Source: an uncultured Desulfovibrio sp. (GTDB lineage Bacteria > Desulfobacterota > Desulfovibrionia > Desulfovibrionales > Desulfovibrionaceae). From it: a DNA stretch of 64,000 nucleotides. Numbering within the stretch: the first letter of the stretch is position 1; each line of letters begins with the position of its first letter. Shown in pieces: positions 23,802 through 27,992 of the stretch. The notes under the pieces are model-generated. The model did not search any database and was not told where the DNA came from. It was given only the letters and a program-made list of their open reading frames with translations. The translations under genes were made by a program, and so were the position numbers. The DNA lies in contig CAJXRQ010000003.1 of NCBI GenBank assembly GCA_913060505.1, forward strand, positions 62,001 to 126,000, in the 5' to 3' direction.

Positions 23802-24443
23802 TCAGCGCACCCGTTCGATGCGCGCCCCCCTGTCCCTGTCCGCGCGGAGGGCCAGAATACGCTCCGTACTTTCGGCAAACAGGTCCACAGGGTGATGGCT
23901 GATGACCAGCACCTGCAACTCCAATCGCTCTGCAATTTCGGCAATAAGCTTCATGAAGACGGGAACCAGTGCGGGACGCAACCAGCAGTCCTGCTCGTCC
24001 AGCACCAAAAAGGGACGATGCCGTTCCTCCGGCAATTGGGAAAGCGCAATAAGTCGCAATCCCACGGAAAAGATATTGCAGACCGAACCGCCCTGCCCGT
24101 GCAGGATATCTTCAACCTGCCCTTCATCGCCCTGATTGCGGATATGAAAGCGGACCTGCAAACGGTTGTTCCTGACCTCGCGGGTCGTGGCAACCACCCG
24201 GTCCTGCCCGAGGACTTCGCGGATTGCATGGGTCAGGTTGGCCTCTATTTCGTCCAGCAGTGAACCGAACATGAGCGTGCTCAACTCTTCCAGCCGCGTG
24301 CGCACCTTTGGGGCAAGATCCAGAAACGACTGGGCTTGATCCAGTAATTCCCGCTCGCGCAGGAATTCATCCGCCCGGCTTTCCCCGAACGCTCCCAAGC
24401 GATCAAGACGGCTTTCAAGATCACGCAAATCGGGCATGTTCAT
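23802..24443 (-). CDS. C-terminal ATPase lobe of a split Rad50/SbcC-type protein
   Basis: A 213-residue protein with the second half of an ABC-type DNA-repair ATPase: a helical start (residues 1-80), a signature-like GQGGSV at 116-121 followed by NIFSVGLRLIAL, Walker B FLVLDE at 145-150 with D-loop QDCWLRP, and the H-loop ISHHPVDLF at 181-189. There is no Walker A. That motif is in the gene at 25759-26991, three genes upstream, so the two proteins should assemble into one ATPase head. Start ATG overlaps the preceding coiled-coil gene by four bases. It is the last gene of the operon. Confidence 0.8.
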   Translation of the reverse strand: MNMPDLRDLESRLDRLGAFGESRADEFLRERELLDQAQSFLDLAPKVRTRLEELSTLMFGSLLDEIEANLTHAIREVLGQDRVVATTREVRNNRLQVRFHIRNQGDEGQVEDILHGQGGSVCNIFSVGLRLIALSQLPEERHRPFLVLDEQDCWLRPALVPVFMKLIAEIAERLELQVLVISHHPVDLFAESTERILALRADRDRGARIERVR

Positions 24444-24772
24444 GAACGCCTCGCAGCTTCCTCAAAGGACCGCTCCACCTCGGCAAGACCTTGCTGAAGA
24501 TCATTGATGTGTTGGCGATATTCTTGCACAACATGCTCATTTTCCTGTTGTTTTTTCTGTAACAACGATTGCAGTTCTCCGGGCTCGTCCGTGCCGTATT
24601 CCTGACGAGCCTGTTCCTGCAAGGCGTTGAGCTGTGCCGTCAGGTTCTTGATGTCCTGCTCCACGCGCACCTTGTGGTCACGGAGCCGCTCAAACTTGGT
24701 GCGCAGGGATTGCAATTCCTGCTCCACGGCCCTGTCCGGCGCTTGGCCCGGACCACCATTATTCTGATTCAT
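24440..24772 (-). CDS. Short coiled-coil protein in the split Rad50 operon
   Basis: A 110-residue, charged, almost entirely helical protein with heptad-like repeats (residues 18-60 and 65-105), no Cys and no catalytic motif. A short break YGTDEPGE near 59-66 divides the two helices, so it may fold back as a hairpin. It lies between the SbcD-type nuclease and the C-lobe, overlapping them by 14 and 4 bases. By position it may replace part of the descending coiled-coil arm of a normal Rad50. That role is inference. Confidence 0.7.
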   Translation of the reverse strand: MNQNNGGPGQAPDRAVEQELQSLRTKFERLRDHKVRVEQDIKNLTAQLNALQEQARQEYGTDEPGELQSLLQKKQQENEHVVQEYRQHINDLQQGLAEVERSFEEAARRS

Positions 24773-25766
24773 CGTGAATTACCTCCTCATACAACTCCCA
24801 GACCAAAGAGTCCTCGGATGTCGCGCGGTCAAGATTTTCATCCAGAAATTCCCGCAGGCCAATGCCTTCGTTGGTTCTGCGCCATGCCAACCGTTCCAGT
24901 CCCCGAATAAACTGGGAACCGTTCTGTTCCGCGGCCCCGTCCTGCTCAGGCGGCAGTTCCTGATCCGGGAACACCTCGGAAAAAGGAAAATGAGGCAGAT
25001 CCAACGGTTCAAGTTCCGCACAATCGGGTGTCCAGACATGGGCGCGGGGAACGCGCTCCAGTGAATGGCGGGAAAACGTCAGCCGGGAAATATTGCCCGG
25101 ATTGGCCCATGTTGTGCAACCCTTGCGCACGGTCTGCTGGGGTCTGTGAATATGGCCGTTAATAACCCAGTCGATGCCGGGCAACTCCTTGATGCCGTAA
25201 GCCTTGTCCAGAAATTCCGGGAACCGGATATTGTGGTGCGTCAGCCATAGTACGCTCTTCGGATCGTCCAAAGCCGGATTGTCGCCGGGACGTTCGAACG
25301 ACTTGGGAATGGGCGTTCCGTCCGGGCTGGCGCAAACAAGGGTCTTGACCGGACCGGACGCGGCATCCGTGCGCAACACGAATTGCGGTCCCGGTTCCTT
25401 CATGAGCCGGATCACGCCCGATGTTTCCAGCACGGCAAGGCTGACGTCTTCGGTAAAGCGGGATTGATGCTTATCATGGTTACCCACGACAGCCCACGGC
25501 ATGCGCTCTCCCGCATGGGAGCCGAACAGGCGCATCAGTTCCACAAGCATCCTGTTGGAGTTGTCACGGGGCCAGTGGAACATATCGCCCAGAAAAACCG
25601 GGACCATTTGCCGTTCCCGAGCCATATTCAAACCGGCCTCCACCTTGGCCAGAATCTGTTCGAAATATCCTTCCAGCCGTTGCCCCGGCGAAGTGTCCGC
25701 AAAATGCGGGTCCGCCATGAACAAAAGCCCGGCGCCGGCAATCTCCGGGAGAGTCCTCTTACTCAT
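24759..25766 (-). CDS. SbcD/Mre11-like metallophosphoesterase
   Basis: Predicted DNA nuclease of the calcineurin-like fold, about 335 residues. All five metal motifs are visible: D-x-H in MADPHFAD, GD in FLGDMFHW, GNHD in VVGNHDKHQ, a later His in LTHHNIRFP and GHIH in VINGHIHRP. The C-terminal part (after about 240) would be the capping and Rad50-binding region. It is encoded between the two halves of the Rad50-like ATPase, overlapping the upstream half by 8 bases. Start at 25766 is chosen because the sequence before it belongs to the upstream gene's end; AGGAGGGCGACGG precedes it. Confidence 0.85.
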   Translation of the reverse strand: MSKRTLPEIAGAGLLFMADPHFADTSPGQRLEGYFEQILAKVEAGLNMARERQMVPVFLGDMFHWPRDNSNRMLVELMRLFGSHAGERMPWAVVGNHDKHQSRFTEDVSLAVLETSGVIRLMKEPGPQFVLRTDAASGPVKTLVCASPDGTPIPKSFERPGDNPALDDPKSVLWLTHHNIRFPEFLDKAYGIKELPGIDWVINGHIHRPQQTVRKGCTTWANPGNISRLTFSRHSLERVPRAHVWTPDCAELEPLDLPHFPFSEVFPDQELPPEQDGAAEQNGSQFIRGLERLAWRRTNEGIGLREFLDENLDRATSEDSLVWELYEEVIHDESE

Positions 25767-26991
25767 GTCCGTCGCCCTCCTGCAAAAAATGCCCGGCATC
25801 CATGGGCTGTCCGCAGGTAGGGCACGCCCCTAGTCCCGCCAGCCGCCGGTCCAACTGCTGCCGGAACGTGTGCATGTCATGCTCCACCCGTTTCAGTTCG
25901 TCTTGCGCCTGCTGCCTGCGTTGCAACAAAACGCCCATTTCACGGATTACATTCTGCAACGGCGCAGGCGAATCCACGGCAGGAGGCTCGCAAAGACCTT
26001 CCAGCGCAGCATGCCGTTGCACGGCACGGTCCAGATTATCCGCAACCATCCGCAACCGATCCGCAAGTGCCCGAAGCGGGCCAGTTTCCTGCGTTTGCGG
26101 CGGCGCATCCAAAGAAGCCAAAGTCCCTGCCTGCGCTGTGGCGACCCGCAAGCGGCCCTGCAAAAATTCCTGCTGCTCCAGCACTCGGGAAAGAGGCGCA
26201 ACAGGAGCCAGTTCCGGCGGAGGCATCAGGCGAGCCAACGCCCGTGCGCTCTGTTCGGCCTGTTTCCGTCGGGATTCCAGCAGGTCTCGCTGTTGCAGCA
26301 GGGAAGAAAGAGACGGAATCGCTGCATCCAAAACCTGTTTACGTGTTTTCAACTCCCGGCAGGTTGTTGCCAGCAAAGTCAGATCCGGCAATGGAGAAAG
26401 CGTATCCAGCTCGTTTTTTATGTGTCCGAGCCGGGCCATACGCCCTGCTACTTCTCGCTTGGCCTCGGTAGTACGCCGCTTGAGTGCGTCCTGCATGGAA
26501 AGCAAATGAGCCCCTTCGGTGGACGAGGCCAGAAAATCCGCCACAAGGCTGTCCGACTTGTTCAGCAAAAAGACAGGCTCCCGCTGATTGCCGATATGCA
26601 CGTCCACGGCGTCGTTTTTGAACCGGTCCAGTTCCACCGGGTCCAGCCGCAACAGGTCGCGAACCTCGTCCGGCACCTTGCCCCGGCCCAGTTTCCAAAA
26701 GGCCTGCGGCTCGTCCTGACCGGGGCGGTGAATCTCATATCCGGGGCTGGCTTTTTTGCGAATCCAGACCACACGTACACCGTCATCCAGCTCCACCGTC
26801 ACACGCGCCTCTTTCGCGCCGTGACGAATGTAGTTGTAGGGCGAGGGATTGGTGACCACGCAACGCAAGCCCTCCACAACAGCGGACTTGCCCGTGTTGT
26901 TGGGACCGGTCAGGGCCGTGAGTCCGGGGCCGAGTTCCACCTCGGTATGCTCATGGGCCATGAAATTCTCAAGTATGATTTTCCTGATCAT
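25759..26991 (-). CDS. N-terminal ATPase lobe, coil and zinc hook of a split Rad50/SbcC-type protein
   Basis: A 410-residue protein that begins like SbcC/Rad50: MIRKIILENFMAHEHTEVEL and Walker A GPNNTGKS at 29-36, with an N-lobe to about residue 165. A long coiled coil follows (about 170-385), and the chain ends with CPTCGQP at 390-396, a CxxC zinc hook of the type that normally sits at the tip of the coil in the middle of Rad50. Walker B and the signature motif are absent here and found in the 23802-24443 gene. Hook-mediated dimerisation would therefore occur at this protein's C-terminus. The ATG overlaps the upstream gene's stop by four bases. Confidence 0.83.
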   Translation of the reverse strand: MIRKIILENFMAHEHTEVELGPGLTALTGPNNTGKSAVVEGLRCVVTNPSPYNYIRHGAKEARVTVELDDGVRVVWIRKKASPGYEIHRPGQDEPQAFWKLGRGKVPDEVRDLLRLDPVELDRFKNDAVDVHIGNQREPVFLLNKSDSLVADFLASSTEGAHLLSMQDALKRRTTEAKREVAGRMARLGHIKNELDTLSPLPDLTLLATTCRELKTRKQVLDAAIPSLSSLLQQRDLLESRRKQAEQSARALARLMPPPELAPVAPLSRVLEQQEFLQGRLRVATAQAGTLASLDAPPQTQETGPLRALADRLRMVADNLDRAVQRHAALEGLCEPPAVDSPAPLQNVIREMGVLLQRRQQAQDELKRVEHDMHTFRQQLDRRLAGLGACPTCGQPMDAGHFLQEGDGHE

Positions 26992-27992
26992 TCTTTCCGG
27001 CCGCGCTTGCTTGCGGCAGTGTTGTTGGGGTTCTGGGGATATCGCGGTCTGCCTGCGCTTTCGCGTTCATACGCCTCCAGTCCGTTGTCGCGCATGGCCT
27101 CATTGTTCGCTTGCCAACGCCCGGCCAATCCTTCAGGCATGCCATGATGATCGCAGGGGAATTCCCCACATTGGAAACAGAAATCCACGTCATGCTCCCG
27201 GGCGCAGGTGCCGACCGTGCAGGCAGTAAACAGGCATCCGCTCCCCCGGCAGCCCGTACATTGCCCGGAGGCGAAATGGTCCAGCAACTCGCGGAAGGCA
27301 GCATAGTGCCCCAATGCGGGATTTACAGCGGAAAACCGCTCTGCCCAAGGGCCGAAATGCGATCCCAGCCGCTCTCCCAGCTCCCGGCTCAAGCGGGCGA
27401 TGTCTCCATGGGCAAACGCCATGCACTTGTCGCATCGCAGGCCGCACGGAGCAATGGCACCGGCTATCTGTGCGCGCCCGGAAACCGGGTGCAGTTCATG
27501 CCCTTCCCGCCGCAGCAGATCGACGGCAGTATCCGTGGCAAAATGAACAACATCCCGACATTGCTTGCCTTTTTCCTCGTCTACAAACTGCTTGCGACCC
27601 GCCGGGGAGGAAAAATCACATCCGGTGAGCCCCCGGCATGTGAGCGATGGCCAACGGCTATTGAACAGCTCCAGAAATTCCTGCACCAGCGCATAGGGAT
27701 ATTCCATGTCCGAATCCGGTGCCGCGCTGCAACTTGCAGCCTTTCTGCCAACGTACAGCCCCAGCCCCATAATGGCGCCAGTCACGGCCCCGCAAAGATC
27801 ATTGGAACGGCTTACACCACTACACAACCCCGAAGCCAGAGCTTGCACGCGCAGCGGGTCCATGCCATGCACGGAACGATCCCCGGCTTCCGCCAGAGCA
27901 CGGACAACACTTTCCGCACAGTACCATCCGCCGTTAAACAGGTCACGGGCCCGCTTGCCCGCCGAATTTTCATTCCCGATTCCGCTCATCAA
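26988..27992 (-). CDS. C_GCAxxG_C_C-type and DUF3795 fusion, Cys-rich protein
   Basis: A 334-residue protein with two Cys-rich halves. The first (1-165) has YCAESVV, LCSGVSRSNDLCGAVTGAIMGLG and later single Cys residues, as in the C_GCAxxG_C_C family of probable redox proteins. The second (about 175-310) has CGLRCDKCMAF, CTGCRGSGC, and CFQCGEFPC, the DUF3795 pattern. Both families are common in anaerobes but have no defined reaction; Fe-S or zinc binding is likely. It sits between a tRNA-type methyltransferase and the split Rad50 genes with four-base overlaps on both sides. A stand-alone DUF3795 gene lies at 55792. Confidence 0.68.
   Translation of the reverse strand: MMSGIGNENSAGKRARDLFNGGWYCAESVVRALAEAGDRSVHGMDPLRVQALASGLCSGVSRSNDLCGAVTGAIMGLGLYVGRKAASCSAAPDSDMEYPYALVQEFLELFNSRWPSLTCRGLTGCDFSSPAGRKQFVDEEKGKQCRDVVHFATDTAVDLLRREGHELHPVSGRAQIAGAIAPCGLRCDKCMAFAHGDIARLSRELGERLGSHFGPWAERFSAVNPALGHYAAFRELLDHFASGQCTGCRGSGCLFTACTVGTCAREHDVDFCFQCGEFPCDHHGMPEGLAGRWQANNEAMRDNGLEAYERESAGRPRYPQNPNNTAASKRGRKE

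Follow-up and report, generated by a model that had tools for sequence, protein, structure and literature searches.

A split Rad50-like ATPase encoded together with an SbcD-type phosphoesterase in Desulfovibrio relatives and in phages

A Rad50 or SMC protein is understood to be a single chain, which runs from a half-head through an arm to a hook or hinge, and through an arm again to the other half-head. The locus described here raises the question of whether a Rad50 can be split naturally. It lies in a stretch of 64,000 nucleotides (the window, hereafter) from an uncultured Desulfovibrio sp. (contig CAJXRQ010000003.1, positions 62,001 to 126,000), where four overlapping genes on the minus strand follow each other in the order NH (N-terminal ATPase half), PE (phosphoesterase), CC (short coil protein) and CH (C-terminal ATPase half). 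A sequence-only reading had taken them for a Rad50/SbcC-type ATPase split at its hook, with an SbcD-type nuclease encoded between the halves, and the open reading frames (ORFs), coordinates and motifs on which it was built were all confirmed. We conclude that the four genes probably encode a four-subunit Mre11-Rad50-type (SbcCD-type) ATP-dependent DNA-end nuclease that stands in for SbcCD. Motifs, half-head folds, co-occurrence, gene order, repeat structure and the near-exclusion of SbcCD, all obtained by computation, lead to this conclusion.

Four overlapping genes and their proteins

NH, 25759..26991, minus strand: 410 aa; Rad50-type N-lobe, helical repeat arm and C-terminal hook
Walker A GPNNTGKS, 26884..26907, minus strand: NH residues 29-36
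NH arm, 25831..26520, minus strand: residues 158-387; five predicted long helices, with a Pro-Pro linker before each of the last three
CPTC zinc hook motif, 25813..25824, minus strand: NH residues 390-393, followed by 17 residues and the stop
PE, 24759..25766, minus strand: SbcD/Mre11-type phosphoesterase; 335 aa from the likely start, the longest ORF beginning at 25799 (346 aa)
CC, 24440..24772, minus strand: 110 aa; two likely helices, judged from sequence, flanking a conserved YGTSDP-type turn
CH, 23802..24443, minus strand: 213 aa; Rad50-type C-lobe and N-terminal helix
Signature-type motif GQGGS, 24084..24098, minus strand: CH residues 116-120
Walker B FLVLDE, 23994..24011, minus strand: CH residues 145-150
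H-loop histidine 183 of CH (SHH 182-184), 23895..23897, minus strand: S182, H183 and H184 invariant in 25 homologues

The motifs of an ATP-binding cassette (ABC) head are shared out between the two halves. NH carries Walker A, of which G29, N31, N32, G34, K35 and S36 are invariant in 26 homologues, as are C390, P391 and C393 of the hook (CPxC); the hook also matches the Rad50 hook chains 6zff and 1l8d, the zinc site being predicted from sequence. CH begins with one long predicted helix and contains GQGGS, FLVLDE and SHH, key residues of the signature motif and Walker B being invariant in 25 homologues; no Walker A was found in its sequence. Among the Foldseek matches listed, to which all our statements on folds apply, the best match of predicted CH was chain B of 1F2U, and the predicted NH head matched 1f2u_A. 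ABC-head motifs and a CxxC hook, as in Rad50/SbcC, are present. The two lobes lie in separate polypeptides, and the hook is not found mid-chain between coils of matching length. Neither NH nor CH had the SbcC model TIGR00618 among its listed matches, a model whose cut-off is rarely passed in control genomes too (1 of 14).

All five phosphoesterase motifs are present in PE (in 346-aa numbering D30xH32, G71D72, GNHD 106-109, HH 188-189 and GHxH 215-218), and they are invariant in 26 homologues. The best profile matches are SbcD/Mre11 chains. With the curated models PE stays below the cut-offs, at 12 bits for the SbcD model PRK10966 (cut-off 450) and 25 bits for PdeM (cut-off 150).

The gene overlaps of 8, 14 and 4 bases, as first read, hold provided that PE starts at its twelfth codon (25766), upstream of which a GGAGG-like site is found. 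PE starts in homologues are mixed, many lying near the shorter form and others permitting the longer form too. Upstream of NH, and overlapping it by 4 bases, is a gene (26988-27992) that joins a C_GCAxxG_C_C redox-type domain to DUF3795; this gene, or parts of it, precedes NH in many relatives.

Co-occurrence, gene order and phage relatives

In a sample of the order, 66 of 199 genomes hold CH, and NH was found in all 66, in 64 as a strong match to a single-sequence query and in two (G102 and G124), where a contig ends, by the tail of NH. Every other genome listed for NH matched it weakly (E 4.5e-5 to 8e-4). Nothing here points to CH having another Walker A partner.

The same gene order was sought in relatives. 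NH-PE-CC was read in 39 of the 40 loci fetched, the fortieth (L072), at a contig end, having yielded nothing, and 36 of these 39 stretches also contained CH, which overlapped CC or lay at most 220 bases from it in 33 and was 0.9-2.3 kb off in three. Hosts named in the PE scan (32 loci) include Pseudodesulfovibrio, Salidesulfovibrio, Solidesulfovibrio, Fundidesulfovibrio and Desulfacinum. Within the window's genus, NH and CH are present in all 25 sampled genomes, and murJ and a methyltransferase gene adjoin the set in many relatives. A phylum sample gave CH in 20 of 395 genomes, 16 of them outside the window's family; 13 of the 15 phylum loci read are NH-PE-CC-CH, and two are PE-CC-CH with NH on a different contig.

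No intact NH-CH fusion was found in the bacterial or viral loci examined. The sole joined ORF comes from a sixteenth phylum locus (L151, genome G503, contig C40), which holds only a 259-aa fragment fusing NH and CH pieces, with large deletions that include Walker A; it is either a relic or an assembly artefact. A second, short CH-like match in genome G086 (contig C3:305730-305975) has two internal TGA stops and is perhaps a decaying extra copy.

The split set and SbcCD come close to excluding each other. Matches to the SbcD model (E up to 1e-5) were obtained in 122 of the 199 genomes, namely in 5 of the 66 with CH versus 117 of the 133 others. The five comprise one genome with true SbcD and SbcC (G115), one with a remnant containing a stop (G125) and three with weak matches (26-29 bits). 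Above the curated SbcD cut-off, 29 of the 199 genomes remain, one of which carries the split set; likewise, of 30 genomes picked because they have a genuine SbcC (best E no higher than about 1e-38), one carries it. By genus, the SbcD counts are 3 of 12 versus 29 of 31. The p-values, 6e-30 and 2e-5, are inflated by shared ancestry. A complete sbcC was also looked for in the window's own genome (51 contigs, 81% complete), and nothing of SbcC was found there beyond P-loop scraps of about 15 bits. In G115, the only one of the 66 CH genomes with real SbcCD, SbcC occupies two open frames (L285) of about 900 and 214 residues.

Phages carry the set as well. A direct viral search with the window NH gave no match, and tblastn with the window CH gave no phage match; the link was reached via PHROG 16465, tblastn of NH and then profile searches. 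PHROG 16465 (exonuclease) matches the NH of the window and of LR745208, a 485-kb uncultured phage; PHROG 15167 (ATPase) matches the CH of both and of Bacillus phage vB_BboS-125; and PHROG 18563 (unknown) matches the CC of vB_BboS-125. This last phage has NH as gp32 (with nine residues after CPLC), a coil of 78 aa as gp34 and CH as gp35, together with an HNH/AP2 gene. Its PE lies at L082:9250-10230 (NC_048735.1 22423-23403), where it fills the gap between gp36 and gp37 and has no feature in the record. The order in LR745208 is NH (CPVC and 13 residues), PE, a RecB/Cas4-like exonuclease, CC, a sliding-clamp gene and CH. Profiles built from bacterial sequences only recovered the NHs of vB_BboS-125 and LR745208 (1e-29 and 3e-28) and their PEs (3e-15 and 1e-17). 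For CH, the bacterial profile gave 3e-8 with LR745208 and 2e-7 with Microbacterium phage Magritte, and vB_BboS-125 was not significant (E 1.6). The bacterial CC profile listed no phage CC, and kinship of the phage CC is accordingly argued only from place, size and central turn.

A wider viral set, of 105 scanned loci and four phage-record loci, was reduced to 70 groups; as the scans were seeded from PE or CH the sample is not unbiased, though co-presence of the other parts is informative. NH, PE and CH were separate ORFs in 55 of the 70 groups (29 NH-PE-CH, 26 NH-CH-PE), and no group had two of the three in one ORF. The CxxC was followed by 1-17 residues in 62 of the 63 groups with NH. The 15 other groups were incomplete in the stretch read: six had NH and PE, two PE and CH, two NH only, one CH only and four PE only (L228, L251, L252 and L253). 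L252, which we take to be a T4-like relative, has an intact Rad50-like chain of 566 aa with its CxxC mid-chain, at residue 289; in the fetched stretches of L228, L251 (read via its near twin L250) and L253, neither a split nor an intact partner was seen.

In seven aquatic phages (L156:10810-13893, L178, L185, L188, L191, L201 and L202), genes for a RecB/Cas4-like exonuclease and a sliding clamp lie in between the split genes, these families having been tested on L156 and recognised in the others by ORF size, order and look. Phage Magritte (L083, L157) has an NH-like gp155 without CxxC and a CH-like gp2, separated by about 93 kb of the linear record, a pair that we read from its sequences as a putative hook-less split Rad50.

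A tree was computed from 55 PE proteins out of 103 rows, after dropping the long-branch rows L228, L238, L245, L248, L250, L252 and L253 and thinning the others; T4-type PE is outside its reach because long-branch rows were left out. Split-type PEs (30 viral, 18 bacterial) stand apart from SbcD and from a group of weak SbcD matches (100/99). The latter we presume to be YhaO-like, NCBIfam giving them only below-cut-off SbcD/Mre11 matches. The bacterial split-type proteins cluster together (96/100), and their cluster falls among the viral ones (86/100), the inner branches being long. This placement is not firm, since viral rows made up one side of a branch in 13% of 200 bootstrap trees. The tree suggests that the bacterial system may be of phage origin.

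The arm, the assembly and other explanations

The arm of NH had been described as a coil. The model shows rather a series of helices, the last three (265-291, 304-331 and 343-387) each preceded by an 11-12-residue Pro-Pro linker. Pro-Pro pairs recur about every 39 residues, the window NH having three such repeats. Of the 192 Pro-Pro spacings in bacterial NHs, 158 span 38-40 residues and a further 23 come close to twice or three times this length, and autocorrelation over 76 bacterial arms gives a sharp peak at 39 (z 76). The distance from Walker A to CxxC is stepped in 58 loci: 351-365 (14 loci), 395-403 (26), 433-441 (7), 472-480 (10) and 558 (1). The rows of these three analyses include near relatives, and the 58 loci include the window and one genome counted twice (L039, L091). 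The 39-residue period was not detected by autocorrelation in viral arms, whose top lags were 47 and 44, among other coil-like lags. CxxC begins 18-35 residues before the NH end in the bacterial rows compared.

In the complex that we propose, NH would bring the arm together with Walker A, the other head motifs (signature, Walker B and H-loop) would come from CH, and both halves would join into one ABC head, like the two chains of the 1F2U Rad50 head. Two NH/CH heads would close on ATP over DNA together with a PE dimer, and PE would cut. Two NH chains would meet tip to tip via a Zn(Cys)4 site formed by CPxC at their free C-termini. The arm would consist of NH alone, a rod of about 39-residue Pro-Pro helical repeats, with CC and the N-terminal helix of CH packing near its root and not reaching the hook. 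In bacteria the complex would do the job of SbcCD, which is to process and tether DNA ends that are blocked or form hairpins.

The same four proteins might instead assemble with CC and the CH helix as the complete return strand of a canonical antiparallel coil that extends to the hook, so that only the gene would be split. The long helix predicted at the CH N-terminus, the helical look of CC and its helix-turn-helix-like pattern, kept in bacteria and phages, would fit such an arrangement. However, CC shows no net indel in 40 of the 58 loci, and its length is uncorrelated with that of the NH arm (r = 0.03); doubtful start codons make some CC lengths in this comparison too large. In all 55 loci where the root spacing of CH was measurable, it was 73 or 76. 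As the NH arm varies by steps of about 39 residues with no matching change in CC or CH, a full return strand is an unlikely role for CC, and the reading of it as a plain missing return strand is not supported. Since the two strands of a canonical Rad50 have to lengthen together, the distal arm is here most likely NH alone. In Bacillus-type phages too, CC is steady at 77-79 aa despite arms of 422-473. Pooling both phage types gives r -0.74 (n 44). In the viral groups, the CC finder passed 43 of 58, a few of which are clearly not CC. We consider the canonical coil unlikely.

An anti-phage or anti-plasmid SMC-like defence system, a role that the sequence-only reading had left open, is very unlikely. 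It is true that PADLOC models of SMC-like or OLD-like ATPases match NH, the best being LmuB (E 5e-11), and that one LmuB model spans residues 2-399. However, most other listed PADLOC matches of NH extend no further than the P-loop region, and PE has no PADLOC match. The genus-wide and largely syntenic conservation, often beside murJ and the methyltransferase gene, and the location of phage sets among replication and recombination genes also speak against it. The shared neighbours, genus-wide conservation and phage operons with clamp and exonuclease lead us to favour replication-linked repair over defence.

It is very unlikely that NH and CH are not partners, each pairing with another ABC protein (RecN or SMC, for example) and PE acting alone, given that NH accompanies CH in all 66 CH genomes of the order, that NH, PE and CH occur together in most viral groups, and that both halves match chains of one structure, 1F2U. 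A sequencing frameshift or a decaying sbcC, for which the few-base overlaps in the window might speak, was rejected outright: split loci recur, with PE and CC between the halves, the end of NH is constant across families and phages, with CxxC shortly before the stop, the halves are unlinked in G302 and G270, and phages have separate ORFs.

Several observations nevertheless weigh against a four-subunit Rad50-type nuclease. The best sequence match of the NH profile is SMC6 (E 5e-8), and CH is by sequence nearest to an SMC chain, weakly (E 0.0025). RecF and SMC chains score higher than 1f2u_A with the NH head, so that assignment of NH to Rad50 over SMC or RecF is not separable by fold. The NH model itself has a predicted TM-score of 0.36, leaving inter-helix geometry unsure, and its per-residue confidence (pLDDT) is below 50 at residues 23-32 (part of Walker A), 119-165, 294-301 and 406-410. 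CH is elsewhere in the genome in the remaining three of the 39 loci, and NH is on a contig other than that of PE-CC-CH in G302 and G270 (L287, L288), its CxxC still near the NH end; with CH or NH encoded away from the rest in several genomes, the earlier expectation of equal amounts from overlapping genes was dropped. Finally, G115 has both the split set and SbcCD, and the near-exclusion of SbcCD is partly owed to shared ancestry.

Beyond the four-subunit nuclease, we consider as a serious but tentative possibility that these systems form a distinct ancient Mre11-Rad50 branch common to phages and Desulfobacterota. Its Rad50 would be permanently in three chains, with a single-chain rod of 39-residue repeats, tuned in length by repeat addition, a one-sided hook at the tip and no hairpin coil, and phages may be the source of the bacterial system. 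A naturally split Rad50, conserved across bacterial families and many phages, would reveal which chain links are dispensable. Arm length would alter in countable steps with the head untouched, the two lobes, arm and hook would be separately exchangeable or omissible, and head-to-hook signalling of ATP binding along the arm would become directly testable.

Comparison with known systems

The split set has in common with SbcCD and Mre11-Rad50 the ABC half-head motifs, the CPxC hook, the five phosphoesterase motifs and a nuclease encoded together with its ATPase. It differs from them by a Rad50 in two or three chains, a hook at a free C-terminus, an arm of 39-residue Pro-Pro repeats and the extra CC protein, and also in that PE is far under SbcD model cut-offs and that NH and CH have no listed SbcC model match. 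According to PMC5093744, a 14-residue Rad50 hook peptide keeps most of the stability of a 45-residue one (logK12 19.19 versus 20.74), which makes hook chemistry plausible at a free end.

Mre11/Rad50 fusion proteins exist, Mimivirus R555 among others (PMC3175470). They are similar in being an unusual chain topology of the same complex with a viral connection, and they represent the opposite change, nuclease and ATPase being joined rather than the ATPase split. PMC7824862 reports that nearly all jumbo phages have SbcC/SbcD, and the split enzymes described in its accessible part do not include this one. No description of a naturally split Rad50 was found in the literature searched, outside of which most subscription journals lie. 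In the PHROG library, 16465, 15167 and 18563 are three separate families, not joined as one split Rad50.

T4 gp46/gp47-type complexes resemble the split set as a phage-encoded Rad50/Mre11 pair; the T4-like L252 is unlike it, with a single chain and its hook mid-chain. A structural parallel is 1F2T/1F2U, which we take to be the Rad50 catalytic domain of P. furiosus, solved as two chains, and presumably a laboratory construct without full arm or hook. There, as in the split set, the N-half and the C-half are separate polypeptides that make one head, whereas the split described here is natural and conserved.

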